A stretch of 35,122 bases of DNA from positions 1 through 35,122 of the forward strand of contig DXHY01000089.1 in assembly GCA_019113175.1 (NCBI GenBank). The letters are read 5' to 3'. The stretch is from Candidatus Eisenbergiella stercoravium. GTDB lineage: Bacteria; Bacillota; Clostridia; Lachnospirales; Lachnospiraceae. The notes below the pieces were generated by a model, which was not told the origin of the DNA, searched no databases, and worked only from the letters and a program-made list of their open reading frames with translations. Below are positions 2,344 through 20,548 of the stretch, one piece after another (the first letter of the stretch is position 1; each line of letters starts with the position of its first letter). The position numbers and the translations under genes were made by a program.

Positions 2344-3372
2344 CTACCGCTGGACCCGTCCGGAGCCGTCTCCACCGGCAAGCTTTTCCACCTCGGAAAC
2401 AGAAACCATGTTGTAGTCTCCCTCAATGGACTGCTTCAGAGCGGAAGCGGCTGCGGCGAATTCAATGGCGTCCTGTTCTTTTTTCCCTGACAAAAGGGCA
2501 TAGATCAGGGCACTGCCAAAGCTGTCCCCACCTCCAACACGGTCCACCAGATGCAGATGATATCTCCTGGAGAAGAAGGCTTCTCCAGATGCCGCGGTAT
2601 AAAGCATGCCGCTCCAGCCGTTGTCGGAGGCGGAAATGCTTTCTCTCAGTGTGACTGCCACCTGTTCAAACCTGAAGCGGTCTGCGAGCTGTCCGGCTAC
2701 AGAACGGTATCCTTCACGGTCAAGCTTTCCTGCACAGATATCAGTATTTTCTGCTTCAATGTCGAATACGTCCCTGGCATCCTCTTCATTTGCGATACAT
2801 ATATCCACGTACTGGCAAAGCTCCGTCATGGCCTCCTGCGCTTCCTTTCTCGTCCACAGCTTGCTGCGGTAGTTCAGGTCGCAGCTGATTTTAAGGCCGT
2901 GCCTTTTAGCCGCCTGACAGGCCTGGACGCAGAGAGCCTTTACATTTTCTCCCAATGCGGGAGTGATTCCGGTGAAATGGAACCAGTCAGCTCCGTCAAA
3001 GATTTCATCCCAGTTGAAATCATCCTCAGACGCTTCTGAAATGGATGAATGCGTCCGGTCATAAATGCAGATGCTGCCGCGTACGGATGCTCCTTTTTCC
3101 ATATAGAAGATCCCGATCCGGTGGCCGCCCCTTTTTATATACCGGGTATCCACACCATAACGGCGCAGGCTGTTTACCGCCATCTGCCCGATGGCATGTC
3201 CGGGAAGCTTCGTTACAAAACGGGAATCCAGCCCGTAGTTTGCCAGAGAAACTGAGACGTTTGCCTCTGCTCCTCCGAAGGTGGCCTCAAAAGAATCCGC
3301 CTGTATGAAACGCAGATAGTTGTACGGCTGCAGACGCAGCATCAGTTCTCCAAAAGTGATTACTCTCGCCAT
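2344..3372 (-). CDS. PfkB-family sugar-acid kinase (2-keto-3-deoxygluconate/galactonate kinase)
   Basis: A 342-residue ribokinase-fold enzyme, probably phosphorylating 2-keto-3-deoxygluconate or -galactonate to KDPG/KDPGal with ATP. Visible features are the N-terminal strand VITFGELMLRL, the substrate-binding FGGAEANVSVSLANYG, SCDLNYRSKLW, and the C-terminal PfkB signature DRVGGGDSFGSALIYALLSG, with catalytic base D283. The start at 3372 (MARVITFGE) was chosen because AAAGGA lies just upstream and the domain begins there; longer frames reach 3390 and 3429. It ends with TAG, showing TAG is an ordinary stop in this genome. It forms the core of a Doudoroff-type route with dgoD and the divergent aldolase. 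The exact epimer used cannot be read from the sequence. Confidence 0.9.
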   Translation of the reverse strand: MARVITFGELMLRLQPYNYLRFIQADSFEATFGGAEANVSVSLANYGLDSRFVTKLPGHAIGQMAVNSLRRYGVDTRYIKRGGHRIGIFYMEKGASVRGSICIYDRTHSSISEASEDDFNWDEIFDGADWFHFTGITPALGENVKALCVQACQAAKRHGLKISCDLNYRSKLWTRKEAQEAMTELCQYVDICIANEEDARDVFDIEAENTDICAGKLDREGYRSVAGQLADRFRFEQVAVTLRESISASDNGWSGMLYTAASGEAFFSRRYHLHLVDRVGGGDSFGSALIYALLSGKKEQDAIEFAAAASALKQSIEGDYNMVSVSEVEKLAGGDGSGRVQR

Positions 3373-3442
3373 CTTTTTCCTTTCTGCCATGAGACCGGCA
3401 ATAAATTCTGATCTGACAACATGTTCCAAATAAAGAATTAAA

Positions 3443-3620: not shown

Positions 3621-4292
3621 ATGGAAGAGAGAAGCTGTAAATTTGTGAAGTGGGTCAGAGAATACCGGATCGTGGCAATCGTTCGCGGACTGGAGAGTGC
3701 TTTGTGCGACAGGCTGGCAGGGGCGCTGTTCGATGGGGGGATCCGCATGATGGAGGTCACCTTTGACCAGACGGGGAAGCTCAGTCAGGAAGAAACGGCG
3801 GATGCGATCAGAGGATTAGGCGGCGCATGGCAGGGAAAAATGCTGATCGGGGCCGGAACGGTGCTTACCCTTCAGCAGCTTGAGCTGGCAAAAAGGGCGG
3901 GAGCGTCCTATATCGTTACGCCGAACACCAACCCCGCGCTCATCCGAAAGGCGAAGGAGCAGGGAATGGGCGTGCTGGCAGGGGCGATGACGCCCTCCGA
4001 GATCTGTGAGGCCTATGAAGCGGGAGCGGATTTTGTGAAGATATTCCCGGCTTCGGTCCTGGGACCGGCATATATCAAGGCGGTTCAGGCACCGCTGGGA
4101 CATATTCCCATGCTGGCGGTCGGGGGGATCAATGAAAAGAATATCGCGGATTACCTGAAGGCCGGAGCTGCAGGTGCGGGCGTTGGAGGCGGCCTTGTCA
4201 GCCGGAAGAATGTGGAGAACGGGAATCTGGAGGCAGTCAGGGAACTGGCCCGGGAATATGTGAAAAATATACGGGATAGCGTCAGAAACTAA
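3621..4292 (+). CDS. 2-keto-3-deoxy-6-phosphogluconate/galactonate aldolase
   Basis: A 223-residue class I aldolase of the KDPG/KHG family, cleaving KDPG or KDPGal to pyruvate and glyceraldehyde 3-phosphate. The family signatures are all present: IVAIVRG, MEVTF with catalytic E45, IGAGTVL, VTPNTNP, and FVKIFPA with Schiff-base K140, then AVGGI. The length is typical. The start is set by AAAGGGATG upstream of the ATG. It is divergent from the kinase and carries operator-like O3 in its leader, so kinase, dehydratase and aldolase appear to form one regulon. It converges on the regulator gene ending at 4316, with only 23 bases between and no clear terminator. Confidence 0.93.
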   Translation: MEERSCKFVKWVREYRIVAIVRGLESALCDRLAGALFDGGIRMMEVTFDQTGKLSQEETADAIRGLGGAWQGKMLIGAGTVLTLQQLELAKRAGASYIVTPNTNPALIRKAKEQGMGVLAGAMTPSEICEAYEAGADFVKIFPASVLGPAYIKAVQAPLGHIPMLAVGGINEKNIADYLKAGAAGAGVGGGLVSRKNVENGNLEAVRELAREYVKNIRDSVRN

Positions 4293-4315: not shown

Positions 4316-5449
4316 TCAGAGGGCTGTTCCGTCCGGAAACAGGGGGATGCAGTTTTGAAACAGTTCTGCCAGCTCTGCCCTGCCGGAACAGCCTGTCGCG
4401 GTAAACAGCTTATTCAGCCTGTATTTAAAGGCAGTATCGGAAAGGAAGAGCTTTTCAGCAAGAGCTCCATAGGGAAGGTCGCGGATCAGCCCGGAGATGA
4501 TCTTTAGGTCAATGTCATCCATGCTGGCGATCGTGTTTTCCAAAGCATATATTTTCTTTAAATGACGTTCAAAGGTCGGTTCAAACGCCGATGAGACGTC
4601 TTCGTCAAAAATCGCTTTCGGAGGAAGCGGTTTTTTTATGGGTTTCGTGCTCTGCCTCAGAAGGATTTCTGATTTTAAAGTGGCGGTACAGGAAAGCAGA
4701 TCAGGATTTTTGATCAGAGAACGGTAGAGCTGGATCACCTGTGCTCCGACGGAGGCAAGATTCAGCGCAACGGTGGAAAGCGGAGGATCCGTATATTGGC
4801 TGAGCCTGGTATTTCCAAAGCCGGTGACCATCAGCTCATCCGGAATGCGGACGCCCCTTTCTGCGGCTTCGTGGCAGAGGCGGACGGCATAATAATCATT
4901 GGCACAGGCCACGGCGTCATATTCCCGGTAATGCTGCCAGAAATGTTCCATACATGCCGGAAGCCCGGCATCGGAATAATAGACGTCCTGTTTCGGATCT
5001 GCGGCCTGATAAGCCCTGACGATGGAGGCCCAGCCCTCAAAACGGAGCATGTCTGTCTGGATGGAAGAATTCACCCCCAGCAGGGCGATCCTTCCGGCCC
5101 CGCAGGAAATGAGGGTTTTCACCATTTCGCTCATGGCCTGGCGGCGGTTAATGGTAATGTAGCTGACCTGCAGGCTGCTCTGGAAAATCTCAAATCCGGC
5201 GACAATGGGACGCAGCTCCAGACGGGAGCACAGCTTCAGATACTCCGTGACGAAAGGAAGAGAAGAACCGAGCAGGACTAGGATCGTTCCGGGGGCAAGA
5301 CTTTCCAGCTCCTTCTCCGTGCAGAGAACGACCTTCAAAAGCCTTTTTGAAGCTTCCTTATACAAACCGTCCATGACCTGCGTATACCATGTAGTGTTGG
5401 AATATTGCTTTTCGGCGATCAGATATAATTTTTGCTTTTCGGTGTTCAT
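4316..5449 (-). CDS. Regulator with LacI-type sugar-binding domain and C-terminal LuxR-like HTH
   Basis: A 377-residue protein of unusual layout. Residues from about 8 to 270 resemble the periplasmic-binding-protein fold of LacI/GalR repressors: IVAGFEIFQSS, ISCGAGRIALLG, CANDYYAVRLCHEAAERG, VTGFGNTRLSQYTDPPLSTV. The usual N-terminal LacI helix-turn-helix is missing. Instead, the last 70 residues hold a LuxR/GerE-like helix-turn-helix (LPYGALAEKLFLSDTAFKYR, then LNKLFTATGCSGRAELAELF). The ATG at 5449 has GAGGGAAAG just upstream and is preferred over a TTG at 5461. It is divergent from the cupin-to-DUF2877 operon and shares a 177-base promoter region with it, so it probably controls that operon in response to a sugar or sugar acid (inference). 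Confidence 0.85.
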   Translation of the reverse strand: MNTEKQKLYLIAEKQYSNTTWYTQVMDGLYKEASKRLLKVVLCTEKELESLAPGTILVLLGSSLPFVTEYLKLCSRLELRPIVAGFEIFQSSLQVSYITINRRQAMSEMVKTLISCGAGRIALLGVNSSIQTDMLRFEGWASIVRAYQAADPKQDVYYSDAGLPACMEHFWQHYREYDAVACANDYYAVRLCHEAAERGVRIPDELMVTGFGNTRLSQYTDPPLSTVALNLASVGAQVIQLYRSLIKNPDLLSCTATLKSEILLRQSTKPIKKPLPPKAIFDEDVSSAFEPTFERHLKKIYALENTIASMDDIDLKIISGLIRDLPYGALAEKLFLSDTAFKYRLNKLFTATGCSGRAELAELFQNCIPLFPDGTAL

Positions 5450-5492
5450 TCTTTCCCTCAAAACCAGAAAAAGTATACAAGCATAATTAATT

Positions 5493-5626: not shown

Positions 5627-6034
5627 ATGGATTTGGAGGGAATACAGGTGGCAGACATCAGGGAGGAGGGATTTCATCCGGCGGTCTGCTTTGAAAAATG
5701 GAAGGTCGCTGTCTTCAACAGCGCAAGCGTCTGGGAGGAAGAAAATCTTTCCTATCTGCAGAAGCATAATCTCAGTGATGAAGTCTTTGTTCTGCTGGAA
5801 GGGGAATGTACGCTGATTTTATCCGGGGAGGAGGTCCCGAGGAAGCTTTATGCGGTAAGGCTGGAAAAAGGTAAGGTTTATAACGTGCCGAAGGGAATGT
5901 GGCATTCCCATGTGCTTGGGAAGAAGACCAAGGTGATCGTTGTGGAAAACAGTGATACCGTTCCTGAAAATTCGCCTAAGGTTCCGCTGCCCTGTCCGGT
6001 CCGCCTGGCTGAGATGGAGTACAGGGAGAAATAG
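5627..6034 (+). CDS. Small cupin-domain protein
   Basis: A 135-residue single-domain cupin. The beta-barrel motifs are SDEVFVLLEGECTLIL (motif 1) and YNVPKGMWHSHVL (motif 2, with the P-x-G-x-x-H pattern). No enzyme family can be assigned. Small cupins in sugar operons are often isomerases, epimerases or binding proteins, but this one is not recognisably KduI or a mannose-6-phosphate isomerase. AAAGGAGGGA immediately precedes the ATG at 5627; the short spacing leaves the TTG at 5633 as an alternative start. It is the first gene after the promoter at 5561-5589, and the next gene begins 35 bases later. Confidence 0.8.
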   Translation: MDLEGIQVADIREEGFHPAVCFEKWKVAVFNSASVWEEENLSYLQKHNLSDEVFVLLEGECTLILSGEEVPRKLYAVRLEKGKVYNVPKGMWHSHVLGKKTKVIVVENSDTVPENSPKVPLPCPVRLAEMEYREK

Positions 6035-6069
6035 GAAAAGACAAGAGAAAGCGGAAAGGGAGTGAAGAA

Positions 6070-6984
6070 GTGAACCGATTATTTCGGAAAATGACGGACG
6101 ATATCTATCTGCTGGAAACACCGGCGGGCGGCGTGTGGTCGGGGATTGTCTTTGTGGACGGGAAGGAGAAGGTCCTGATCGACAGCGGAGAAAACGCGGC
6201 CCATATTGACGAGTTGCTGATCCCGGCTCTGAGGGAGCTGGGATACGGTCTGAAGGAAGTGGACTGGCTGTGCAATACGCACTGCCACGGAGATCATGTG
6301 GGAGGGCACAGGCGTATCGTGGAGCTTGCCGGAACAAAGGTGGCGGCATATCGGAAATCCGTGCCTAAGCTCAGGGATCCGTTAAAATATTCCAGGCTGA
6401 TCAGGGCGGCCTATCCGGCTGATTCGCCTCCTGCGCCGGCTGTCCTGGACGGGGTGAAGGAGAATACGATCCTGGAGGATGGAAGCGTGGTCGCCGGAAG
6501 GCTGCAGGTAGTGGCGGCACCTGGACATGACGATGACTGCATCTGTTTTCTGGATCTTGCGTCCAAGACCCTGATCAGCGGAGATTCCCTGCAGGGAAAC
6601 GGGACGCGCACGCAGGGAACGGCGCTGTATATGGACTTGGGAGCCTACCGGAGCACGCTGAACAGACTGATGGGGATGGAGATCAAAAACATCATCAGCG
6701 CGCATCCATATCTGTTTTCCGGGGAGTCGGCAAAAGGGGAAAAGGAATGCGGCATCTACCTGGAAAAATGCATGGAAATCACCAGGCTGTATGAGGAATA
6801 TATCCGGCTGAGCCTGCAGGCAGGGGAACGGGATACGGTAGAAATCGCAAAAGGCTTGATCGATCATATGGGAAATGAAAGACCAGCCTGGCTGTTTCAA
6901 CCGCTGTATACGGTGGATGCTCACAGAAGGGAGCTGCAGAAGGGACTTGCAGGAGGAAACACAAAAGGAGGGAATGTAAAGTGA
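6070..6984 (+). CDS. MBL-fold metallohydrolase
   Basis: A 304-residue metallo-beta-lactamase-fold hydrolase with the metal ligands H71, H73, D75 and H76 in NTHCHGDHVGG, a further His in APGHDDD, an Asp in LISGDSLQ and a His in ISAHPYLF. It starts at GTG 6070 behind AAAGGGAG. The fold includes lactonases, thioesterases and acyl hydrolases. In an operon with a sugar-type SDR and a dehydratase, opening of a sugar lactone is one reasonable role, while hydrolysis of an ester or thioester intermediate is another. Its stop overlaps the next gene's start (GTGA), so the two are translationally coupled. No signal peptide is seen, so it is cytoplasmic. Confidence 0.87.
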   Translation: MNRLFRKMTDDIYLLETPAGGVWSGIVFVDGKEKVLIDSGENAAHIDELLIPALRELGYGLKEVDWLCNTHCHGDHVGGHRRIVELAGTKVAAYRKSVPKLRDPLKYSRLIRAAYPADSPPAPAVLDGVKENTILEDGSVVAGRLQVVAAPGHDDDCICFLDLASKTLISGDSLQGNGTRTQGTALYMDLGAYRSTLNRLMGMEIKNIISAHPYLFSGESAKGEKECGIYLEKCMEITRLYEEYIRLSLQAGERDTVEIAKGLIDHMGNERPAWLFQPLYTVDAHRRELQKGLAGGNTKGGNVK

Positions 6985-7778
6985 ACAGAAATATTCTGGT
7001 TACCGGAGCTTCACGGGGGATCGGAGCGGCCATCGCGCTGGCCTTTGCCGCCGAGGGCGACAATGTCGGGATCAATTACCGCTTTGATGAAAGCGGAGCA
7101 AAAGAAACCTGTCGGAAAGCAGCTGATCTTGGAGTAAAGGCCCGGGTTTATCAGGCGGATGTGGGGAATTCTTCCGATGTGGGAAAAATGTTTGAAGCCT
7201 ATCTGGAGGATTTTGGTTCTATCGACGTCCTGGTAAATAATGCGGGGGGAGGACTGAAGATCCCGGAGGGGCGGTTTGAAGATATGCCACTGTCCTATTG
7301 GGATGAAATGGTGGCTCTGAATCTGAACGCCGCCGCCTACTGTTCCAGCCATGCGGTCAGGGATATGGTGAAGAACAAAAAAGGGGGAGCCATCATCAAT
7401 ATCAGTTCTGTCCACAGCGTGATCACATATGTGAAGAGGAAAACGTTCCCCTACTGCGCGGCGAAGGCCGGGCTGAACATGCTCACAAAGACGATGGGCG
7501 TAGATGTGATCCGGCACAATATCCGGGTCAATGCCGTCGCGCCGGGCTTTATTTCCACTACGGCAACAACACGGTACAACGAAGAAGAGCTGGATGCTTT
7601 CCTGAGAAAGATCCCGGCGGGACGGCTGGGAAAGACGGGGGATATCACACCGCTGGTCCTGTTCCTTGCGGATCCGGAAAAATCGGGATTCATCGTGGGC
7701 CAGACTTTTGTGGTGGACGGCGGACAGTCCATAGACGGAACGATCGATTATATGCTGCAGGAAGAAAGCAACGGATAA
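6981..7778 (+). CDS. SDR-family oxidoreductase
   Basis: A 265-residue classical short-chain dehydrogenase. It has the Rossmann TGASRGIG (residues 8-15), NNAGGG (86-91), S143, the catalytic Y158-x3-K162 (YCAAKAG) and the C-terminal VDGGQ. It most likely oxidises or reduces a hydroxyl of a sugar or sugar acid with NAD(P). The GTG start at 6981 overlaps the previous stop by four bases and has AAAGGAGGG upstream. The next gene follows after 15 bases. The substrate cannot be read from the sequence. Confidence 0.92.
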   Translation: MNRNILVTGASRGIGAAIALAFAAEGDNVGINYRFDESGAKETCRKAADLGVKARVYQADVGNSSDVGKMFEAYLEDFGSIDVLVNNAGGGLKIPEGRFEDMPLSYWDEMVALNLNAAAYCSSHAVRDMVKNKKGGAIINISSVHSVITYVKRKTFPYCAAKAGLNMLTKTMGVDVIRHNIRVNAVAPGFISTTATTRYNEEELDAFLRKIPAGRLGKTGDITPLVLFLADPEKSGFIVGQTFVVDGGQSIDGTIDYMLQEESNG

Positions 7779-7793
7779 AAGCGGGAGGTAAAA

Positions 7794-9463
7794 ATGGAAG
7801 GGAAAAGAAAACTCAGAAGTCAGTGGGAATTTGGAGAAGCCAGTGAGTGCCGAAGGGGCCTGATGCTGGGAATGGGATATTCGGAGGAAGAGCTGAAGCG
7901 GCCTCTGATCGGGATCGTAAATTCCTGGAATGAATACAATCCCGGACATGTGCATCTAAAGCAGGTGGCGGAACGCGTGAAGGCAGGCGTGCGCGAGGCG
8001 GGAGGCCTGCCGGTTGAAGTGATGACCACAGGGATCTGCGACGGAATGGTATTGAAGGATCCCAGATATATTGAAGTCCCCAGCAGGAATTCGATCGCCG
8101 ATCAGGTGGAAATGACGGTGGAAGGGAATTTTTTTGACGGCATGGTGATGCTGTCTACCTGCGACTCCATTGTACCAGGACATCTGATGGGAGCGGCGAG
8201 GATCAATATCCCCACCATTCTGGTGACGGGGGGCTATATGCCTCTGGGCCAGTGCAGGGGAAAGGAAGTAGTTCATATTCATGCGCAGGACAAGGTGGGG
8301 ACGGCAAAAGCCGGCAAAATGGACATGGACGAATACAATGAGCTGATCGCAAAGTCATGGGGAATCTGCGGCGCCTGCACATCCATGACAACGGCGAACT
8401 CCATGTGTATGATAGCGGAAGCCCTTGGGATGACCATGCCTGGAAATTCCAGCGTTTCGGCAGTCAGCTCTCAGCTTTATCTGATGGCTTATCAGGCCGG
8501 AAAGCAGATCGTGAAGCTGGTGGAACAGGATATCCGGGCGCGGGATATCATTACGGTGGAATCTTTGAAGAACGCCATCAAGCTGGACATGGCGGTGGCG
8601 GCGAGTTCCAACCTCATTTTACATATTCCTGCGATCGCCAATGAGGCAGGATATGACCTGCCCTGGTGGAAATATTTTGACGAGGCCTCCGCCGAAGTGC
8701 CTCTTCTGTCCCATCTGGCGCCCAGCGGCCCTTATTCCCTCAAGGATTTCGACCTGGCGGGAGGGATGCCTGCCATGCTGAAGGAACTGATGCCGATGCT
8801 GAACGGAGACTGCCTGACCGTTACGGGAAATACGCTTGCGGAAAACGTGGCAGACGCGAGAAATTATAACACGCAGGTGATCCATACCCTGAGGGATCCG
8901 GTGATGAAGGAGCCCGGGATCGGCGTTTTATATGGAAATCTGGCGCCGGAGGGGTCCATTATCAAAATCGCGGCCGTGCCGGAGCAGTTAATGCGCTTCC
9001 GGGGAAAGGCGAGGGTATTCGATGGACTGCATGAAGGCTTGGAGGCGCTCCGTGCGGGGGAAATACATGAAGGGGACGCGATCGTGATCCGCTTCCTGGG
9101 ACTGCGCGGAAGATTCGGGACAACAGCTTTTACCTTCCAGGAGGAGTTGAAAGGGATACCGGAGCTGTATAATAGCTGCGCGATCATCACGGACGGACGT
9201 TTTTCGGAGGAACGAGCGGGCTGAGCGTGGGATACGTATCTCCGGAAGCTGCTCTGGCAGGTCCCCTTGGGCTGGTGAAGGAAGGGGATGTGATCGAGAT
9301 CGATGTGAAAGAGCGCAGGATTCACATGGAGGTCACGGAAGAGGAAATGGAAAAGAGGGCAAAGGAATTTTCCTGGAAATTCCCGGAGGGAGAATATCCT
9401 AGATTCCTGAATCTGTTTGTGAAGAATGTTGGTTCCATGGCGAAGGGCGGTATATGGGAATGA
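7794..9463 (+). pseudogene. IlvD/Edd-family dehydratase with one frameshift
   Basis: Iron-sulfur dehydratase of the dihydroxy-acid/sugar-acid dehydratase family, expected to turn an aldonate-like acid into its 2-keto-3-deoxy product. Seen are NSWNEYNPGHVHLK, C123 (STCDS), C195 (GACTSMTTANSM) and ITDGRFS. The reading frame breaks at 9205/9206, right after catalytic S471: the 0 frame reads SEERAG and stops at 9224, while the -1 frame gives [20 protein letters not shown] through to the stop at 9463. Restored length is about 556 residues, normal for the family. Odd substitutions are Ser125 where the family has the metal-binding Lys of the CDK motif, and AASSN in place of GGSTN. The ATG at 7794 has GGGAGG. 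The restored frame ends in ATGA overlapping the next gene, so the ancestral coupling is intact and the lesion is recent or an error. Confidence 0.88.
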
Positions 9464-11109
9464 ATGTGCTGATCATCGGGACCGGTCTGACCGGCATGAT
9501 GGCCGCCGCGCAGATGAAGGGCCTGCTCGCTTCAAGGAACAGAAATGCCGGGAGGATGGAGGATGAAATACAGATAGAACTGGTCGGCGACGGCGCGGGC
9601 GCTTCCCCCTTCGTGCACGGCTTTAATATCCCGCTGGATGAAAGGGACAGCGTGGAAACCTTCCTGGAGGACACCATGCGGGGCGGATACGGCCTGTCGG
9701 AGCCGGAGCTTGCCCAAAAGCTGTGCCGGGGAAGCCTGGAGCTCCTTCCGGATCTGGAAAAGCTGGGAATTTCGCTGGAGAAAAAGGATGGAAAATATGT
9801 CCTGCTGCAACCGCTGGGTTCCTCTTGGCCCAGGGTGGCCGGAAGCGGCAACCATACCGGCGCAGAGATCTTAAACCGCCTTACGGGGCTTTTGAAAAGC
9901 AGGGAGGATGTGCGCTTTACGACGCAGGCGCGGGTGCTGAGGCTGGATGTGAGGGACGGCTGCCTGAAAGGGGCTGTCCTCTGGGACAGACGAAACAGGC
10001 GGCTGGAATACCGGAGCGCCTCCTGCGCCCTGATCGCCTGCGGCGGCTTCTGTGGCATTTATCCCTTTTCCACCAACCCTGCGGACAGCGGCGGGGATGG
10101 GATTGGTATGGCGTATGATGCGGGCGTTCCGCTGATCGATATGGAATTCGTCCAGTTTGAACCGAGCGTGGCCCTGTATCCGGAGACGCTGCGGGGAAAA
10201 AGCGTTATTACAACCATGTTTTATGAGGGTGCTCTCCTGCAAAACGGCAAAGGCGAGCGTTTTATGCAGCGGCTCCATCCGGGAGAGCATCCGGAATGCG
10301 TGAGCAAGGACGTGCTTTCCAGGACTATCTATGAAGAGATCCGAAAGGGAAATACGACCCCTCACGGAGGCGTATGGTTTGACGCGACAGGCGTGGGAAA
10401 AGAGAAGCTGGGAAAAAGCTATGGCTCTTATGTGGAACGATACCGGAGGGCGGGAATGGACATTTCCCAAGAGCCCTTTGAAATCGCTCCGGGACCTCAC
10501 ACTTCCTTGGGAGGAATCGCGGTCGAAACGGATATGAGCACGGCTGTGCCGGGGATCTATGCGGCCGGAGAAGCGGCCGGAGGGATCCACGGAGCGAACC
10601 GGATCGGCGGAAATGCGGGGCTGGAAACGCTGGTATTTGGAAAGCTGGCGGGAGAGGGCATGCTGCGTTTCCTGAACGGGAAAAGCGTATCGGCCATGGC
10701 AGATACGAAAAGCGGAGAAAAGGCGTTTATGGAAATGCTGGAGGAACCCTGCGGAGGAAAAAGAAAAACGGCGGGGGAAGATACGCTTTCCGGAATCAGG
10801 AAGGAAATGCAGGAAATCCTGCAAAAAGATCTTTACCTGGAACGGGACGCGGAGGGACTGGAAGCGGCATGCCGCCGCCTGGAGATGCTTTCGGAAGCGT
10901 TGAAGGAAACGGCAGAGCCGCAGTCCTATGAACGGCTGCGCTTGGAAAATGACCTGACGTGTGCTCTTGCGCTGGCGGCGTCAGCCAGGGCGAGAACGGG
11001 GAGCGTGGGCTGCCATGTGAGGTCGGACGACAGCGGGGAGGACTGGCATTACCATGTGTTCCTGCAGAAAAAGGACGGGAGTATGACGGTGAGAAAGGAA
11101 AAAATATGA
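9460..11109 (+). CDS. FAD-dependent dehydrogenase, fumarate reductase/succinate dehydrogenase flavoprotein type
   Basis: A 549-residue flavoprotein. It has the N-terminal FAD-binding [10 protein letters not shown], an internal [12 protein letters not shown], the capping-domain motif GPHTSLGGI (H347), [18 protein letters not shown] (R381) and a C-terminal helical domain like SdhA/NadB ([15 protein letters not shown]). Residues that bind and protonate fumarate in FrdA are changed: FHPT reads FEPS (E234) and the PRD Arg is Lys (SKD, K283). H347 and R381 are kept. This suggests a related redox reaction on a different substrate. No iron-sulfur or membrane subunit lies nearby. The ATG at 9460 overlaps the preceding stop (ATGA); the ATG at 9454 is an alternative. 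The next gene again overlaps by ATGA. Confidence 0.86.
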
Positions 11110-12638
11110 AGCGGATTGTGATAAAGAAAAACCGATATGTGGACTCGGTCACGCTGATGTCCGTCGGGGACAAGATCATGAAAATGGACGGGATCGAAAA
11201 CGCGGAGGCGCAGATGGGGACCTGGGCGAACCAGGAGCTTTTGACGGAGCTGGGGTATGAGATCCCTGCAGATACCGGGGCGGACGACTTGGTGCTGGCG
11301 GCGTCGGGAGATGCAGAAGAGCATCTGGATGCAGCGTTCCGACGTATGGAGGAAATCCTGGACCACAAGGATGAGGAGGAAGAGCAGTACCGGGATCTTT
11401 CGGAGATCGACCTGGAAAAGACGCCTTACGATCTGGTCCAGATTTCCCTGCCGGGGCGCTACGCCTTTGCGGAAGCAAAAAAAGCACTGGAGAAGGGACT
11501 CCATGTTTTCATTTTCAGCGACAACGTGAGCCTGGAGGAAGAAAAAAAGCTCAAGGAAATAGGGGAGCGGAAGCATCTTATGGTGATGGGGCCGGACTGC
11601 GGCGTGGCGATGGTCGGCGGCGTTTGCCTGGGTGCAGGCTCCATTTTTCGGGAAGGCCCTGTGGGCATCGTCGCGGCATCCGGAAGCGGCGCGCAGGAAG
11701 TGGCGTGCCTACTGGAAGAATGCGGCCTGGGAATTTCTGAACTGATCGGCACGGGGGGAAGGGATCTCTACCCCCAGATCGGCGGTATGCAGATGCTCCA
11801 AGGAATGCGGCGGCTGGATGAAGATGAGAAAACCCAGGTGATCGTCTTGGTTTCCAAGCTGGCGGACACCAGGGTGATGGAGAAGGTACTGCAGGAAGCG
11901 GATCGTCTGAAGAAGCCCGTGGCTGCGGTATTCTTAGGCGGCGATAAAGAATTATTTGAAGGACATAAAGCGGCTGCTGCCTTTTCTCTGGAAGAAGCGG
12001 CGGTTCGTGCGGCGGAGCTCGCAAAGCCGGGACAGACGTTTTCCTTCCGGTATCCGGAGGAAGAGATCGAAAGGATCGTCCGCCGGGAAATGGAGCAATA
12101 CGACGCGGAACAGAAATATTTCCGCGGATTATACTGTGGAGGAACTTTTACGGAGGAAGGGCTTCTTTATTACAGCCGCATTCCGGGAATCACCCTGTAT
12201 TCCAATCTGGAAACCCGTTATGCGAAAAAACTTCCTGACAGCCACAGGAGCATAGGAAATAGCATCCTGGATATGGGGGCGGAGGATTTTACCAGCGAGG
12301 CGCCCCATCCGGTATTCGATCCCAAACTCCGCATCCGGAGGCTTCTTCAGGAAGTAGAAGATCAGGAGACGGCTGTCATCCTGCTGGATTTCATCACCGG
12401 ACCGGGAGTGGCGCCGGATCCGGTCACGCCTGTGGCGGAGGTGATCAAAAATACGGACAGGAAACGGCATATCACATACATTGCGAATATCTGCGGCTCC
12501 TCGCAGGATCCACAGAACGTGAAAGAGGCGAAGAGGCTGCTGGAGGAAGCGGGGGTTATCGTGACGCCGTGCAGCTATGAAAGCGCGCGCCTGGCGGGAG
12601 CCTTAATGAAAGCGCTGGAAGGGAGGATGGTGCAGTGA
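11106..12638 (+). CDS. FdrA-family acyl/carbamoyl transferase subunit (AllF-like)
   Basis: A 510-residue homologue of FdrA/AllF, a protein built like a succinyl-CoA synthetase alpha chain. It shows HVFIFSDNVSLEEE, MGPDCGVAMVGGVCLG, GIVAASGSGAQEVACLLEE and GISELIGTGGRDL, all typical of FdrA. In E. coli FdrA/AllF with AllG and AllH forms the oxamate carbamoyltransferase, which splits oxalurate phosphorolytically to carbamoyl phosphate and oxamate. The same three proteins are encoded here within four consecutive genes. E. coli FdrA is somewhat longer (about 555 residues). The start at 11106 overlaps the flavoprotein stop by ATGA and has AAAGGAAAA upstream. No other allantoin genes are present, so an oxalurate role is doubtful. 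Confidence 0.9.
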   Translation: MKRIVIKKNRYVDSVTLMSVGDKIMKMDGIENAEAQMGTWANQELLTELGYEIPADTGADDLVLAASGDAEEHLDAAFRRMEEILDHKDEEEEQYRDLSEIDLEKTPYDLVQISLPGRYAFAEAKKALEKGLHVFIFSDNVSLEEEKKLKEIGERKHLMVMGPDCGVAMVGGVCLGAGSIFREGPVGIVAASGSGAQEVACLLEECGLGISELIGTGGRDLYPQIGGMQMLQGMRRLDEDEKTQVIVLVSKLADTRVMEKVLQEADRLKKPVAAVFLGGDKELFEGHKAAAAFSLEEAAVRAAELAKPGQTFSFRYPEEEIERIVRREMEQYDAEQKYFRGLYCGGTFTEEGLLYYSRIPGITLYSNLETRYAKKLPDSHRSIGNSILDMGAEDFTSEAPHPVFDPKLRIRRLLQEVEDQETAVILLDFITGPGVAPDPVTPVAEVIKNTDRKRHITYIANICGSSQDPQNVKEAKRLLEEAGVIVTPCSYESARLAGALMKALEGRMVQ

Positions 12639-14041
12639 TGTGGAAGGTGATCAATATTGGGCTTCCGTTTTTTTACGAAGCTTTAAAACAGCAGGGGTGT
12701 GAAGCCGTTCAGATCGACTGGCAGGCGCCGATATCAAGAAGCGCTGCCGCGGAGAGGCTGATGTGTGCGGTAAACCGACCGGAGCTGAAGGAAAAGGCTG
12801 ACCGGGCGAATGAAGAGGCGGTCAGATGTATCATTGATTCGGATCCCGCCTGGGTGGATATCCTGCCGGCAGGAGAGGTGATCGAAGGGATGGAGGATCA
12901 CACCATTATCCATTCAGGGCCTCCCATCGATTATGATAATATGGTGATGCTTCACAGGCGCGGGCTGGTGAGTGCATGCCTGTTTGAAGGATGGGCAAAA
13001 AACGAGGAGGAAGCGGTCAGCCTGATCCGGGGAGGGCATCTGAAGATCATGTCGGCTCTGGACACCAACACGGTCGGAGCCGGCACCGGCATCATCACCA
13101 AATCGGTGGCGATGATCGTGATCGAAGACAGGAAAACCGGAAAACGGGCGGCAACATTCCCGGCGGAAGGACCTTTTCAGGGCGGCTTCTGTGGGTGGGG
13201 CCTGTATTCGGTGCCCATTGCGGAAAACCTGCGCCACATGAGGGAGGATCTGTTCCCTGTATTGCGGCAGATGCTCCGCGAGTTCGGCCCCATTCCCATC
13301 AAACCGATCCTGGCGGAGAGCATGCAGATGGGGGATGAAAATCACACCAGACAGACGGCGGCCGATCTCCTTTTTGAGCATCAGGTGCTTCCCAGGCTGT
13401 TTAAAATGGACGTGCCAAAAGAGAAAATGATTCCTGTCATGGAGTATATCGTGGATACGCCCAGATTCTTCCACTGCTATGGGCAGGGGGCTTCCAGGAG
13501 CGCCATGCTGTCTGCAGTCGGGACGCCGTATTCCACCATGGTGACCGCGGTGTGCGGGAATGGAGTTCAGTTCGGAATCAAGGTAGCGGGCCTGGGAAAT
13601 GAGTGGTTCTGTGCCCCTGCTCCCATGATGAAGGGACGCTACACCTCCAGCAAATATACGATCAAGGATCAGCTGCCCTGGCTCGGCGACAGCTGTGTAG
13701 TGGAATGCGCGGGAATGGGCGGAATGGCTGCGGCAGCCAGCCCGATCGTGTGTTCCCTGCGGGGCATGAAACTGAGGGATGCCATAAACCTGACGAAAGA
13801 GATGGGAAAGATCTGTATCGCAAAGAACCCTAACTTCCCGATCCCCAACCTGGATTTTGACTTTCTTCCGGTCGGGATCGATATCAGGAAGGTGGTGGAA
13901 ACCGGGATCACGCCGGAAATCCACGGGGGCATGTTCAACCGGGAGGGCGGCCTGATCGGAGCGGGAAGCGCCAGAGTCCCGATGGAATGCTTTGAAAAGG
14001 CGCTGCAGGCCTACGAAAAGAAATATGGAGGAAATGTGTGA
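12635..14041 (+). CDS. DUF1116 protein (AllG/YlbE-like)
   Basis: A 468-residue DUF1116 protein, homologous to YlbE/AllG, the second subunit of the E. coli oxamate carbamoyltransferase. Recognisable stretches include INIGLPFFYEAL near the N-terminus, VQIDWQAP, TNTVGAGTGIITKS, QMGDENHTRQTAA and CAGMGGMAAAASPIV. Starts are possible at GTG 12635 (GTGA overlap with FdrA, GGGAGG eight bases upstream) and at ATG 12638. No signal peptide or membrane segment is seen. Its position directly after FdrA and before an acyl-phosphate kinase argues for an acyl or carbamoyl transfer step that ends in a phosphorylated acid. Confidence 0.88.
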   Translation: MMWKVINIGLPFFYEALKQQGCEAVQIDWQAPISRSAAAERLMCAVNRPELKEKADRANEEAVRCIIDSDPAWVDILPAGEVIEGMEDHTIIHSGPPIDYDNMVMLHRRGLVSACLFEGWAKNEEEAVSLIRGGHLKIMSALDTNTVGAGTGIITKSVAMIVIEDRKTGKRAATFPAEGPFQGGFCGWGLYSVPIAENLRHMREDLFPVLRQMLREFGPIPIKPILAESMQMGDENHTRQTAADLLFEHQVLPRLFKMDVPKEKMIPVMEYIVDTPRFFHCYGQGASRSAMLSAVGTPYSTMVTAVCGNGVQFGIKVAGLGNEWFCAPAPMMKGRYTSSKYTIKDQLPWLGDSCVVECAGMGGMAAAASPIVCSLRGMKLRDAINLTKEMGKICIAKNPNFPIPNLDFDFLPVGIDIRKVVETGITPEIHGGMFNREGGLIGAGSARVPMECFEKALQAYEKKYGGNV

Positions 14042-15216
14042 AAGACAGGATCATGGTTCTGAATCTGGGTTCCACCAGCTTTAAGTTCAAGCTGTTTCAG
14101 GAAGAAAGCCTGATCGCGGAGGGTGGATTCGAAAATCTGGGAAAGGGAGCCGGAACATGCAGCATCCGGACAAAAGAAGTGCGATGGACGGAGAAAAGGG
14201 AAGTTTTCGACCATATGGAAGCCTTTTTCCTCTCCTTGACCTGGCTGAAGGACCAGGGGGTACTGCTGTCCATGGAGGAGCTGGAGGCGGTCGGATACAA
14301 AGCAGTGCATGCCGGCGCCCTTTCCGGCGCCAGGGTGGTGGACGACGGCCTTCTTCAGGTCATGAAGCGGTATGCGGGCTTTGCGCCCGCGCACAACCCG
14401 GTATATATCCGTTTGATGGAACGGGTGCGGGAAGAATGGCCGGAGCTGATCCAGATCGGCTGCTTTGAAACTTCCTTTCACGCGGATATCCCGGAAAAGC
14501 GGACAGTTTACGGCGTGCCGGACTGGTGGAGAAGGGAGCTTGGGATCCGTAAGTATGGCTTTCACGGTTCTTCCCACAGCTATATCGCGTGGAAAATGAA
14601 GCAGACCGACGAAAAGGCCGTGCGGCTTCTTTCCTTCCATCTGGGAGGTTCCTCTTCCGTATGCGCCATCCTTGATGGAAAGAGTATCGCCTGCAGCATG
14701 GGGGCGACTCCGCAGTCCGGGGTTTTCCAGAACAATCGGGTGGGAGAGTTTGATATTTTCTGCCTTCCGGAATTGATGAAGCATTATCAGGGAGACTGGG
14801 AAGAGATCCTTACGGTCCTGTCCTCTGAGGGCGGCCTGTACGGAGTCAGCGGTATCAGCAACGACATGCGCCTGCTCCAGGAGGCGGCGGACGGAGGAAA
14901 CGCTTCCGCCGCCCTTGCGATCGACGCCTATGTGGATCAGCTCGCGGGCTATGCGGGAATGTTTTCCGTATATCTGAAAGGGGTGGACGCTCTTGTTTTT
15001 ACCGGAGGAATCGGGCTGGGAAGCAGCAGGATCCGCCGGAAGGTGTGCGAAGAGCTTTCTTTTCTGGGAGTACATCTGGACGAGGACGCGAATGAGAAGG
15101 GAGAGGAGGGAAAAATCAGCAGTAAGGACAGTCCCGTTGCGGTATATGTGTGGAAAACGGACGAGGAACGGATGGTGATGCGGCAATGCCGGGAAGTGCT
15201 GAGGTCAGGTGTCTGA
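14038..15216 (+). CDS. Acetate-kinase-like acyl-phosphate kinase
   Basis: A 392-residue ASKHA-fold kinase of the acetate/propionate kinase family, expected to make ATP from an acyl phosphate. Motifs are NLGSTSFKF (N9), VHAGALSGA, APAHNP (H119), FETSFHADIPE (E144), YGFHGSSHSYI (H176), NNRVGEFD (R234), TGGIGLGSSRIRRK and TDEERM (E376). Compared with the Methanosarcina acetate kinase catalytic set (N7, R91, H123, D148, H180, R241, E384), five are kept while R91 is Lys88 and D148 is Glu144, so the substrate is probably not plain acetate. It sits between the AllG- and AllH-like genes, where E. coli uses an unrelated carbamate kinase. GTG start with GTGA overlap on the preceding stop. Confidence 0.88.
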   Translation: MKDRIMVLNLGSTSFKFKLFQEESLIAEGGFENLGKGAGTCSIRTKEVRWTEKREVFDHMEAFFLSLTWLKDQGVLLSMEELEAVGYKAVHAGALSGARVVDDGLLQVMKRYAGFAPAHNPVYIRLMERVREEWPELIQIGCFETSFHADIPEKRTVYGVPDWWRRELGIRKYGFHGSSHSYIAWKMKQTDEKAVRLLSFHLGGSSSVCAILDGKSIACSMGATPQSGVFQNNRVGEFDIFCLPELMKHYQGDWEEILTVLSSEGGLYGVSGISNDMRLLQEAADGGNASAALAIDAYVDQLAGYAGMFSVYLKGVDALVFTGGIGLGSSRIRRKVCEELSFLGVHLDEDANEKGEEGKISSKDSPVAVYVWKTDEERMVMRQCREVLRSGV

Positions 15217-16073
15217 ATATCGGCGGAGAGCTGGATACGAAAGAGCGGCTGGAGGGAGAACTGCATTCTTGCTTTGAAAACGCGATGAATTATCTGCTGC
15301 GCACGCCTAAGGGACCGCGTATGCTCACTTTCCTGAAGGAAGGGATGCCTTTGCTCCCGGACAGTGTTGTGGTATCCAGGGAATTTTTTTCCAGAATCAA
15401 AGTCCAGGAAAATTATGATATAATAAAAAAAGATTGTCATATCCGGGTAGGAAGGCTGGAAATGGTTCTTGACGGACAGGAAGCCCGCGATCTGCATATA
15501 TGGAGAAAACAGAAAGCTGCGGGCTATGCCTGCGTGATGGAGCTTCCCAGAAAAAAACGGCAGCTGGAGGAATACCTGGAGCGGGAAGAAGGAGAAACAA
15601 GGAGCGACCTGTATCGCCTTCCAGCCCGCTACCGCCAGGCGATAACAGAGCTGGCAGAAGCTTTTTATTCCGGAAGAAAAGAAGAAGCGCTGTACTGGTT
15701 TGAAAGAGCGGCAGGGGCGGGAAGAGGTCTGACGCCAGCCTGTGATGATGCCGTGATCGGCATGATGGCGGTGATGGGCGTTTTCCTGGCCGGATTCAAA
15801 GAAGAGGGGGAAAACAGATACCGGGATATCGTCGGGGAGCTGGAAGCGCTCCTTGACCGGAAAGAGCTGACCACGCAGGTGAGCAGGAAATATCTGCAGT
15901 GCGCGTGTCAGGGAAGATTCGCGCAGCCATTGTGCGTTTTGGCAGAGTGGCTGATAGAGGACGGGGAGGAGATTCCGGAGAAGGCGCTGGGACAGATCCT
16001 GCAAACCGGCCATACATCGGGGAGGGATATGTTATACGGGGTGTTGACAGCCATGGAGCGGATTTCGGAATGA
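15186..16073 (+). CDS. DUF2877 protein (AllH/YlbF-like)
   Basis: A 295-residue DUF2877 protein, related to YlbF/AllH, the third subunit of the E. coli oxamate carbamoyltransferase. The clearest signature is GRGLTPACDDAVIGMMAVM, the family's G-LTPSGDD-like loop, with PRMLTFLKEGMPLLPDSVVV in the N-terminal part and GHTSGRDMLYGVL at the C-terminus. The best start is ATG 15186, inside the preceding gene, giving a 31-base overlap; no strong ribosome site is seen, so translation is probably coupled. It is the last catabolic gene before the two-component genes, 40 bases downstream. Confidence 0.85.
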   Translation: MPGSAEVRCLNIGGELDTKERLEGELHSCFENAMNYLLRTPKGPRMLTFLKEGMPLLPDSVVVSREFFSRIKVQENYDIIKKDCHIRVGRLEMVLDGQEARDLHIWRKQKAAGYACVMELPRKKRQLEEYLEREEGETRSDLYRLPARYRQAITELAEAFYSGRKEEALYWFERAAGAGRGLTPACDDAVIGMMAVMGVFLAGFKEEGENRYRDIVGELEALLDRKELTTQVSRKYLQCACQGRFAQPLCVLAEWLIEDGEEIPEKALGQILQTGHTSGRDMLYGVLTAMERISE

Positions 16074-16113
16074 GTAGCGGAAGGATTGACGCAGCAGGAG
16101 AGGAGCGGATCAG

Positions 16114-16875
16114 ATGTACCGTTTGATTATTATTGACGATGACGCAGGGACGTCGAATAACCTGGGAAACTATTTTCCATGGGAAGAGCATGGGTTTCAG
16201 GTGATGGAAAAATTTTACGACGGATATACGGCCTGCGAATATTTAAAAAAGCATACGGTGGATCTGATCATCAGTGATATCAAGATGCCTGTGATGGACG
16301 GGATTGAACTGGCAAAATGGCTGTACGACCAGGGCCGGAGAGAGAAGATTATTTTTATCAGCGGCTACAAGGACTTCGATTACGCGCAGAAGGCGATGGA
16401 ATACGGGGTGAGCTATTATTGCCTGAAGCCGGTGACCTATCGTGAGATCAAGCAGAAGCTGGCAAATATCCGGCAGGCGCTGGAACGGGAGAAAAAAGCG
16501 GAGCTGGAGCGGGAACCGGAGGGGGAAGCCTCCATTAAGGAAAAGCAGATCCGGAAAATGAAGGATTATATCCGGGCGAACTACCGTGACGTTACGCTGG
16601 AAGGGCTGGCGGAGCACATGAAAAAGAATCCGGCCTATCTGTCCCGGTTTTTTAAGGAAAACACCCATTTGAACCTGTCTGTCTATATCACGCAGGTCCG
16701 AATGGGGAAGGCGCTTTCCTTCCTGCGGGACGAGGAATTCGGGACCATTTATGAAATCGCGGAAAAAGTAGGCTATACCAATGCGGTCAGTTTCTCCAAG
16801 GCATTTCAGAAGCAATATGGGGTTACACCGTCGGAATATCGCAGCAGGTTTACCACCATTCAGGAAGAGATATGA
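16114..16875 (+). CDS. Response regulator, YesN type (REC plus AraC HTH)
   Basis: A 253-residue response regulator. The receiver domain (about 1-120) has the acidic pair IIDDD, phospho-acceptor D55 in LIISDIKMPVMDG, and the conserved Lys in CLKPVTY. The C-terminal AraC domain (about 150-250) has two helix-turn-helix units: TLEGLAEHMKKNPAYLSRFF and IYEIAEKVGYTNAVSFSKAF, then GVTPSEYR. The start has GGAG about nine bases upstream. It overlaps the histidine kinase gene by ATGA. Pairs like this usually activate adjacent carbohydrate ABC importers, here the genes from 20549. Confidence 0.94.
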   Translation: MYRLIIIDDDAGTSNNLGNYFPWEEHGFQVMEKFYDGYTACEYLKKHTVDLIISDIKMPVMDGIELAKWLYDQGRREKIIFISGYKDFDYAQKAMEYGVSYYCLKPVTYREIKQKLANIRQALEREKKAELEREPEGEASIKEKQIRKMKDYIRANYRDVTLEGLAEHMKKNPAYLSRFFKENTHLNLSVYITQVRMGKALSFLRDEEFGTIYEIAEKVGYTNAVSFSKAFQKQYGVTPSEYRSRFTTIQEEI

Positions 16876-18647
16876 GACAAGGAAAATATTGGAGAATTTG
16901 CATAATCGGGATCCTGGCAGTCCTTCTTATTTTAGGAGGCTGTATCGCTGCGACGTTTTATTTTTCCGATAATATCAAAGCGCTGGAGGTAAAAAGGCTG
17001 AACGAAACGGCGGAAGAGATGGATGAGTTCCTGTTCGCGGATAATATCTATCTGACGCCTGATACGGCCTATTTCTACAAACTGGAGAGGCTTTTGCGGA
17101 CAGGGGAGGGACAGGGGGAGGCGGGTACTTTCGCGGGAATGATCCAGAAGAACCTGAGCAACGGCGCGCTGTATGATTCCAACATATATTCCGTTTATAC
17201 TGCCCTTGCGGATGAAACGGCCCCTTATGTTCTCGTGAACGGCCTCCTGCGCGAAAAGGAAGAGATGCGGGATATGGAATGGTGGAATATGGCCTGCGGG
17301 ATGGAAGAAGATTGTTATCTGACCTGGAGAAAAATAAACAGTTCCTATCTGAACCGGATCGACCTGATCACCTTGTATCGGAGATATGATTCTGTCAGTT
17401 ACGTGGATGGGGGAATCGTAAGGGGATATATGGTGATCAACTTCTATGCCAGCCATATCCTGAACGAGCTCAGCGCGCTCTGCAGTCTGGGCGAGGATGT
17501 CATCCTGTATCAGCCGGAGGAAGACAGGCTGTTCTATTCCGGTCAGACAGGGTTTACAGAAGAAGAGCTTAGGGAGATCTTGGGGAAGGATGGTGCGTCG
17601 GAAGAAAGAAGCGGCATGATCGATCTGGGAAAAGAAAAGGTCATTTTCAGCATCTGTGCATCCCGTCACGCGCCGTTGTATTTTATCATGCTGAAGGAGG
17701 ACAGGGAAGTAAGCCGCTTTATGGCGGAGATCCGGTCTGTCTTCCTGGCCGTTGTGCTGCTTGGCAGCATTTTTGTGAGCGCATTTCTGTTGCTTTACTA
17801 TCGGCAGCATAGGAAATATCTGTCCGGCCTGGCCCAGATTGTAAAGGCTACGGAAGAAGAAACGCCGCTGGAAGAAAAAATGATGGAAAAGCTTGCGGAC
17901 AGCTTCCGCGGGCGTGGAGAGGATCTGGAGGTCATTGCCAGAAAGATTCTGGAGGATAATCTGGATATCAGTGAGCTTAAACGGATCTTGGGTTCAGAAC
18001 GCCAGCTTCGCACAGAGGTGGAAATGCTGTACGGGCATGCGCAGATCAATTCCCATTTTCTGCTGAATACGTTGGATTCCATTTACTGGGAAAACGTGAA
18101 ATCCCAGGGAGGGGACAGCGAGGGAACGCAGATGATCGAGCGGCTGTGTGGGATCCTCAAGTATGCTCTGGATTCTTCCACGCCCTATATCTCGTTGGAG
18201 GAGGAAGTGGAATGCGCGAAGGATTATCTGGAAATTCAGAAAATGCGGAAAGAAATGGAGATCCGGGTTGAATGGAGGATCCCGGAGACGTTGAAAAACG
18301 CGAAAGTGGGTAAGCTGATGCTCCAGCCAATCCTGGAAAACAGCATCCAACATGGAGGATTTGGGGCGGGCCAGGCGATTTGGCTGGAGGTGGAAGCAAA
18401 GGTGCTGGAGGACGCTCTGTATCTATCCGTCCGGGATAACGGAATCGGGATGGAAGAAGCGGAAATGCGGGAAATGAACCGTCTGTTCCGGCAGAACGTG
18501 CCGGTGAAATCGAAGCATATCGGCCTGATGAATGTGAACAGGAGGATCCAGCTCCAGTATGGAGAGGAATATGGGATCGTGCTCCAGCCTTCCGATGAAA
18601 ACGGTGGGCTGACGGTGATGATCAGGCTGAAATACCTGACCGTCTGA
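16872..18647 (+). CDS. Sensor histidine kinase, YesM type
   Basis: A 591-residue membrane kinase: TM1 about residues 10-32 (IGILAVLLILGGCIAATFYF), an extracytoplasmic sensing region of about 260 residues, TM2 about 290-310 (FLAVVLLGSIFVSAFLLLYY), then a His_kinase domain with H395 in QINSHFLLNTLDSI and an ATPase domain (LQPILENSIQHG, RDNGIGM, HIGLMNVNRRIQLQYG). The usual QINPHFLYN has Ser for Pro and Leu for Tyr. ATGA overlap with the regulator gene shows a cognate pair. The ligand is presumably an extracellular oligosaccharide (inference). Confidence 0.93.
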   Translation: MRQGKYWRICIIGILAVLLILGGCIAATFYFSDNIKALEVKRLNETAEEMDEFLFADNIYLTPDTAYFYKLERLLRTGEGQGEAGTFAGMIQKNLSNGALYDSNIYSVYTALADETAPYVLVNGLLREKEEMRDMEWWNMACGMEEDCYLTWRKINSSYLNRIDLITLYRRYDSVSYVDGGIVRGYMVINFYASHILNELSALCSLGEDVILYQPEEDRLFYSGQTGFTEEELREILGKDGASEERSGMIDLGKEKVIFSICASRHAPLYFIMLKEDREVSRFMAEIRSVFLAVVLLGSIFVSAFLLLYYRQHRKYLSGLAQIVKATEEETPLEEKMMEKLADSFRGRGEDLEVIARKILEDNLDISELKRILGSERQLRTEVEMLYGHAQINSHFLLNTLDSIYWENVKSQGGDSEGTQMIERLCGILKYALDSSTPYISLEEEVECAKDYLEIQKMRKEMEIRVEWRIPETLKNAKVGKLMLQPILENSIQHGGFGAGQAIWLEVEAKVLEDALYLSVRDNGIGMEEAEMREMNRLFRQNVPVKSKHIGLMNVNRRIQLQYGEEYGIVLQPSDENGGLTVMIRLKYLTV

Positions 18648-18702
18648 CAGAGAAGAGAACAGGCGGCAGGAAAAGCGGAAAACGCTTGGAAAGGGAGGAA
18701 AT

Positions 18703-20421: not shown

Positions 20422-20474
20422 AATCTGATATAGAAAAAGTAAAAATGGATGCAGAAAAAGCAAAACTGGGCATA

Positions 20475-20503
20475 TTGTATATAAAAACACGAAATGGTAT
20501 ATT
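20475..20503 (+). promoter_or_regulatory. Promoter of the ABC importer genes
   Basis: TTGTAT (20475-20480), a 17-base spacer and TATATT (20498-20503) preceded by TGG, an extended -10. It lies in an A+T-rich 127-base gap. The inverted repeat ATATAAAAA (20479-20487) / TTTTTATAT (20503-20511) straddles the promoter and could be a binding site for the adjacent YesN-type regulator (inference). Confidence 0.6.
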
Positions 20504-20548
20504 TTTTATATGCAAAAGGTGCATGAATTGAAGAAAGGGAGGTTGCGA

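Follow-up and report, generated by a model that had tools for sequence, protein, structure and literature searches.

An AllFGH-like complex and an acetate-kinase-family enzyme in a candidate phosphorolytic sugar pathway of a Lachnospiraceae genome

The DNA considered here is one contig of a Lachnospiraceae genome, that of Candidatus Eisenbergiella stercoravium, and is referred to at its full length of 35,122 nucleotides as the window; the nearest named record is that of Candidatus Eisenbergiella merdipullorum (L041), whose AllG is 100% identical. Nine plus-strand genes at 5627-16073 encode a cupin, a metallo-beta-lactamase-fold hydrolase, a short-chain dehydrogenase, an IlvD-type dehydratase, a FrdA-like flavoprotein, three proteins resembling the AllF, AllG and AllH subunits of the Escherichia coli oxamate transcarbamylase and, between the last two of these, AckL, a member of the acetate kinase family. 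An earlier note, made from the sequence without database searches, had described this series, and its gene content was borne out by frame listing, Pfam and NCBIfam. The series may specify a pathway in which a sugar acid is split by phosphate with recovery of ATP. The genes, and three upstream of them, are:

2344-3429, minus strand: PfkB-type sugar kinase, likely KDG kinase (Pfam PF00294; homologue in 16 of 22 related loci)
3621-4292, plus strand: KDPG/KHG aldolase (PF01081; homologue in 17 of 22 related loci)
4316-5461, minus strand: LacI-type sensor-domain regulator (Pfam Peripla_BP_3)
5627-6034, plus strand: cupin (Pfam Cupin_2, below cut-off; homologues in L041, L046 and on the L219 contig)
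6070-6984, plus strand: metallo-beta-lactamase-fold hydrolase (MBL), proposed sugar-acid lactonase (Pfam Lactamase_B, PF00753)
6981-7778, plus strand: short-chain dehydrogenase (SDR), proposed aldose 1-dehydrogenase (Pfam adh_short; PF13561)
7794-9463, plus strand: IlvD/EDD-type dehydratase, frame-broken, proposed sugar-acid dehydratase (Pfam ILVD_EDD_N/C: PF00920, PF24877)
9454-11109, plus strand: FrdA-like flavoprotein (FAD), proposed 2-keto-3-deoxy acid 4-dehydrogenase (Pfam FAD_binding_2, PF00890; Succ_DH_flav_C, PF02910)
11106-12638, plus strand: AllF (FdrA)-like subunit (Pfam Ligase_CoA; NCBIfam PRK06091 below cut-off; PDB 3dmy, 180 bits)
12635-14041, plus strand: AllG (DUF1116)-like subunit of an Ack-linked clade (PF06545, 219 bits; PDB 3clq, 229.5 bits)
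14038-15216, plus strand: AckL, acetate-kinase-family protein, proposed lactoyl-phosphate kinase (Pfam Acetate_kinase, PF00871)
15150-16073, plus strand: AllH (DUF2877)-like subunit, start codon uncertain (PF11392, 85 bits)

Four-base overlaps, earlier described as joining most of the genes, are present at the MBL/SDR, FAD/AllF, AllF/AllG and AllG/AckL junctions, but not at AckL/AllH: read from its first GTG, AllH overlaps AckL by 67 bases, and the region of the AckL stop contains no ATG, GTG or TTG that would give a four-base overlap into AllH. The earlier note also listed the IlvD-type dehydratase as an ordinary member of the series and missed a break near 9.2 kb, where the window frame stops (at 9224); what remains of the domain is found in a different frame, which ends at about 9463. 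In all 21 extracted relatives (L041 and L042 among them) the gene is open over 552-565 amino acids, and the interruption must therefore reflect either faulty assembly or a change in this strain.

PF06545, the family of AllG, is uncommon, being found in 24 of 397 genomes sampled from the family, 20 of 392 from the order and 60 of 398 from the phylum; the window's own genome has one match. A scan of genome contigs with the AllG proteins of the window and of L032 as queries gave 23 loci, 22 of them close (62-100% identical to the window AllG), the other (L063, 36% identical and labelled Burkholderiales) being kept out of that set. The close loci include the window's own species (L041, a near copy of the window, each being counted as a row) and a near-duplicate pair (L054/L055); they are titled Lachnospiraceae, Oscillospiraceae, Erysipelotrichaceae, other Clostridia and, in one case, Planctomycetaceae, and many are from animal guts or rumen. 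Scored by tblastn at more than 50 bits, AllF and AllG were present in all 22, IlvD and FAD in 20, MBL and SDR in 19, AckL in 18, KDPG aldolase in 17, PfkB in 16 and AllH in 15. The idea that the gene set belongs to this genome alone, which the earlier note had named as a way for its reading to fail, is thus rejected. A frequent gene order is MBL-SDR-IlvD-FAD-AllF-AllG-AckL-AllH, and there are rearranged loci, such as the L049-L054 group with AllG-KDPG aldolase-PfkB-AckL, and L058, which begins AckL-AllH.

Among the four loci scored without AckL, L060 begins within AllF, and AckL, AllH, MBL and SDR follow one another on a different contig from that genome, just as they do upstream in its sister L058. 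L059 ends within AllG, and another contig of its genome carries the end of AllG followed by AckL, AllH, cupin, KDPG aldolase and PfkB. The genome of L056 (labelled Planctomycetaceae) has AckL not in its AllFGH cluster but in a microcompartment operon (see below). No AckL was found for L055, whose contig measures 3.4 kb and whose genome is incomplete; the matches there were one canonical kinase and one that was weak and partial.

The window and 25 related loci (the 22 close ones and three of a second group, introduced below) were also probed by tblastn with E. coli proteins. None of these 26 sequences matched carbamate kinase (YbcF), the ureidoglycolate-branch proteins AllD and AllE, or phosphotransacetylase (Pta). 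The absence of carbamate kinase and ureidoglycolate dehydrogenase pointed out earlier therefore extends to the related loci, and that of allantoinase does so except in L047, the only one with an AllB-like gene. This lies among AllB-, AllC- and permease-like neighbours on the opposite strand (14688-20648, minus), which by eye look like a separate pyrimidine or hydantoin set.

A tree of 79 AllG rows was made by a quick method, leaving out L055 and L032 (the latter being the same record as L054). The 21 rows whose stretch also contains AckL fell into one clade of 25 (SH-aLRT 99) that contains no row labelled with carbamate kinase, while E. coli AllG was placed in a group of 12, 11 of them so labelled. 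Orthology of the window AllG to the E. coli protein, which would have told against the earlier interpretation, is rejected by this separation. The Ack-linked clade divides into 22 rows that include the window (the window group) and a second group made up of L031, L107 and L108; the tree program warned of long branches, and the join of the two may be long-branch attraction. In L031 and L108 of the second group, AllF and AllG adjoin AckL, and both loci have genes resembling GarR and transporters, to which L031 adds one resembling glycerate kinase (names given by reading the sequences); L107 is a 5.3-kb contig ending in AllF, and its genome yielded only a canonical kinase. At 16 positions of AllG and 11 of AllF the window group conserves a residue other than the one that the E. 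coli-type rows, and at least 85% of the remaining rows, conserve; the second group shares five and three of these, respectively. Among them are R258, N380 and T381 of AllG (E. coli numbers), which are G, H and G in both Ack-linked groups. The same residue occupies 42 AllG and 45 AllF positions in more than 90% of every group compared. Comparison of AllH with PDB gave no relative.

Elsewhere among the AllG-containing stretches, AllF and AllG were read as a single frame of about 1000 amino acids in L034, L035, L038, L039, L040, L116 and L118-L121, and two or three AllG copies occur per stretch in L033, L034, L130, L136 and L139, which suggests further variants of the complex.

The AckL rows (with L043, truncated at a contig end, left out, and L032 left out here as from all trees) are separated from AckA as a clade of their own (100/100). 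The changes R91K, D148E, N211G and G212S, placed by alignment to E. coli AckA, were found in 20 of 20 AckL rows and in none of six AckA rows, which come from E. coli and from four genomes of the set; we take these to be acetate kinase positions in Methanosarcina thermophila numbering. AckL was also considered as the housekeeping acetate kinase, which is rejected because two further genes of the genome are strong matches to AckA. When the 397 family genomes were searched with a profile from 14 AckL rows, nine AckL-type matches scored 511-612 bits and the next at most 449; three of the nine lie in genomes with AllG.

A clue to the substrate of AckL comes from the L056 genome. In 79 genomes drawn from its phylum, four kinases matched at 499-522 bits (the next at 423), all four carry the AckL residues, and all four adjoin PduL-like, two BMC-shell-like, EutN-type and aldehyde dehydrogenase-like genes. 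For three of these loci only the nearest genes were seen; the operon of the L056 genome (L217, 5103-12969) was confirmed by Pfam as class II aldolase, two EutN_CcmL, Aldedh, Acetate_kinase, two BMC, PTAC and DeoR, and shares its genome with the AllFGH cluster of L056. The other kinases of the phylum that were read together all keep R, D, N and G (26 of 26), and none is within 1.5 kb of shell genes, one of them (L231) having a PduL-like neighbour. In the final tree the four microcompartment kinases are sister to a 13-row group that includes the window AckL (100/99); the other half of the AckL clade consists of seven close-locus rows, the second group and stand-alone genes. The microcompartment operon of the L056 genome agrees with the published Planctomycetes-Verrucomicrobia (PVM) locus, to which the degradation of L-fucose and L-rhamnose is assigned, with acetate kinase as an ancillary gene (PMC4207490); its route is drawn from lactaldehyde through lactyl-CoA and lactyl-phosphate to L-lactate (PMC8857213), and its PduL is thought to act on lactyl-CoA (PMC4784909). 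Given this route and the kinship of the window AckL with the microcompartment kinases, the acyl-phosphate of the operon is most likely to be lactoyl-phosphate.

Two of the close loci have lactate genes of their own. The cluster of L052 continues, after AckL and AllH, with LarA, EtfB, EtfA and LctD, and in L054 AllH and EtfB overlap by four bases, followed by EtfA and LctD (the Etf names are by reading). The L052 LctD scores 683 bits against the lactate dehydrogenase subunit 7qh2 and 227 against glycolate oxidase; the LarA scores 486 bits against lactate racemase 2yjg and 234-236 against malate and broad-range racemases.

The flavoprotein was compared in 21 rows (the window and 20 loci) with E. 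coli SdhA, FrdA and NadB, using FrdA numbers that count the Met. In all 21, H233 is replaced by E and R288 by K, and the Arg of the RGEGG motif is lost, while H356 and R391 are retained. Within this family we take the H356/R391 pair to bind a carboxylate and R288 to be the proton donor in fumarate reduction. With the donor replaced and the carboxylate-binding pair kept, the protein is unlikely to be a fumarate reductase, and we propose that it oxidises a carboxylate-bearing sugar acid. The remaining enzymes retain the motifs of their families: HxHxDH in MBL (window and 20 of 20 extracted rows), YxxxK in SDR (20 of 20 rows) and six invariant Cys in IlvD (21 rows). The closest PDB matches of SDR and MBL, among those listed, are generic relatives. 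Mutarotase-type homologues, present in six of the 22 related loci, would suit SDR as an aldose 1-dehydrogenase. At family level, then, the aldose dehydrogenase, lactonase and sugar-acid dehydratase families are all represented in the operon.

From these components a non-phosphorylative, energy-saving pathway can be proposed, which we hold to be slightly likelier right than wrong. An aldose would be oxidised by SDR, the lactone opened by MBL, and the sugar acid dehydrated by IlvD to a 2-keto-3-deoxy acid, which the flavoprotein would oxidise at C4 to the 2,4-diketo-3-deoxy acid. The AllF-AllG-AllH-like complex would then add phosphate at C4 and cut between C3 and C4, with pyruvate and a 2-hydroxyacyl phosphate as products. 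The latter would most likely be lactoyl-phosphate, if the starting sugar is a 6-deoxyhexose (L-fucose or L-rhamnose, for example); finally AckL would pass the phosphate to ADP, leaving lactate. The appeal of the fifth step is that the diketo acid (-OOC-CO-CH2-CO-R) would be isosteric with oxalurate (-OOC-CO-NH-CO-NH2), with CH2 for NH and R for NH2, as pyruvate is with oxamate and the acyl-phosphate with carbamoyl-phosphate, so that the same chemistry would give pyruvate and an acyl-phosphate. With phosphate in place of water, and a kinase to follow, one ATP would be saved, as might befit anaerobes. The wider notion, that substrates shaped like oxalurate are phosphorolysed by the AllFGH fold in general, with the complex acting here as a lactoyl-phosphate-forming 2,4-diketo-3-deoxy sugar acid phosphorylase, we rate a little short of an even chance. 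Among the papers listed in literature searches, those on acetate kinase with lactoyl-, glyceroyl- or glycolyl-phosphate included, titles and opening lines of abstracts held nothing recognised as this phosphorolytic reaction; a lactate kinase is mentioned in work on F420 (PMC6450877). The earlier note had suggested that the complex cleaves an oxidised sugar-acid-like substrate phosphorolytically and that the kinase recovers ATP. The comparative evidence partly supports this, strengthening the interpretation and narrowing it to lactoyl-phosphate as the predicted product. The note had overlooked the KDG kinase and KDPG aldolase genes by which the set is accompanied.

Several observations weigh against the proposed pathway. 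The kinase and aldolase just named (with homologues in 16 and 17 of 22 loci, respectively) fit poorly, since a KDG kinase would find no hydroxyl at C6 of a 6-deoxy acid, and the two genes call for a further branch or a different sugar. Hexonates or hexuronates might be handled by the cluster as well, or its sugar might be no 6-deoxyhexose. Genes near some loci (GH43, sulfatase, weak GH127-like), in the part of the neighbouring frames that was scanned, do not single out fucose or rhamnose, and the IlvD of L042 is nearest to dihydroxy-acid (346 bits) and L-arabinonate (324 bits) dehydratases. The case for lactate is qualified in that the role of lactyl-phosphate in the PVM compartment is itself a prediction, the four microcompartment kinases include a nearly identical pair, lactate genes adjoin the cluster in only two of 22 loci, and the AckL proteins of those two (L052 and L054) belong to the half of the tree without the window and microcompartment kinases. 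Nor is AckL a strict partner of AllFGH, an idea weakened by the other six of the nine AckL-type kinases (L195-L200, all Lachnospiraceae), which are in genomes with no PF06545 match, keep the AckL residues and have no evident partner genes, two of the six being near contig ends. Such stand-alone genes suggest that AckL is a broader kinase type recruited by the AllFGH-like operon. The N211 change alone is not diagnostic, since L205, another kinase of the L056 genome, has G there while keeping R and D. Finally, the related loci are all contigs of metagenome-assembled genomes.

The same phosphorolysis might act on a substrate derived from a hexose or pentose, giving glyceroyl- or glycolyl-phosphate from which AckL would free glycerate or glycolate. 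The KDG kinase and KDPG aldolase of most loci would suit hexonates, and the glycerate kinase-like and GarR-like genes of L031 and the GarR-like gene of L108, beside AllF, AllG and AckL, point the same way. Set against these are the lactate racemase and LctD of L052, the LctD of L054 and the relationship of the window AckL to the microcompartment kinases, and we consider this variant unlikely. The aldolase bears also on a rather improbable alternative, in which it would perform the C-C cleavage and the complex would phosphorolyse some other acyl compound, such as a sugar-acid ester or thioester. AllF is akin to succinyl-CoA synthetase, aldolase and kinase genes occur in most loci, and GDSL or CE2 esterase-like genes lie near L049 and L060; but the flavoprotein would then be left without a clear role, and the stretches seen of five loci lack an aldolase (the L059 genome having it on the continuing contig).

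It is also conceivable that the complex still transfers carbamoyl groups, on a ureido compound, with AckL a bystander or acting on acetyl-phosphate. The AllG and AllF positions that hold the same residue across every group would accord with this, as would a published assay of AllFGH, that of the E. coli complex as oxamate transcarbamylase (PMC11326118). Against it stand the failure to find carbamate kinase, AllD and AllE in the 26 sequences probed, the group-specific residue changes in AllG and AllF, and the changed catalytic residues of AckL; we consider it improbable.

Beyond the genes already listed, the upstream side of the operon has an IclR regulator and a split enolase-superfamily gene, and downstream are a two-component pair and a sugar-type ABC transporter. 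The enolase-superfamily (MR_MLE) gene, on the minus strand at 28-1344, is read as two frames (28-498 and 574-1344). At 28422-29779, after a GFO/IDH gene, are several short frames, one with an LVIVD repeat match, possibly the remains of a larger gene.

If the proposed pathway is correct, a little-studied three-subunit enzyme known from purine breakdown would gain a second reaction, in central carbon metabolism, and gut and rumen anaerobes a route from sugar to pyruvate and lactate yielding one ATP more than its hydrolytic version. A C-C bond would be broken by phosphate without thiamine, CoA or selenium, saving energy that the known hydrolases lose, and the acetate kinase family would gain a recognisable lactate kinase branch, at present hidden by the annotation 'acetate kinase'. 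By the isostere argument, a direct test would require no more than the complex, the kinase and a single substrate.

How, then, does the operon compare with known systems? AckL shares its Pfam family with the AckA that works with phosphotransacetylase, but its catalytic and pocket residues are changed and no Pta was found in the loci. The fucose/rhamnose microcompartment of the PVM type has a kinase of the same AckL subfamily and a predicted lactyl-phosphate, which, unlike that proposed for the window, is predicted to arise from lactaldehyde via aldehyde dehydrogenase and PduL; the 29 window frames scanned with Pfam gave no match to BMC shell proteins or PduL. The E. coli oxamate transcarbamylase AllFGH, with its carbamate kinase AllK, resembles the window in having three homologous subunits encoded in one operon with a kinase able to make ATP from an acyl-phosphate; the window differs in its separate AllG clade, another kinase family, genes for sugar rather than allantoin, and group-specific residues. 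The proposed order of steps matches that of the route III pathway for L-fucose, L-rhamnose and pentoses (FucF/FucG, LRA5/LRA6), namely aldose dehydrogenase, lactonase, dehydratase, 4-dehydrogenase and cleavage of the diketo acid. The route III enzymes hydrolyse the 2,4-diketo-3-deoxy acid; pyruvate is formed together with lactate or, where the sugar is a pentose, with glycolate (PMC11199699, PMC6336799). For an FAH-type hydrolase, the E. coli YcgM probe (a single distant one, and so insensitive) had no match in the 26 sequences. Relative to route III, a flavoprotein is proposed at C4 instead of an SDR, and the use of phosphate for water would conserve one ATP.

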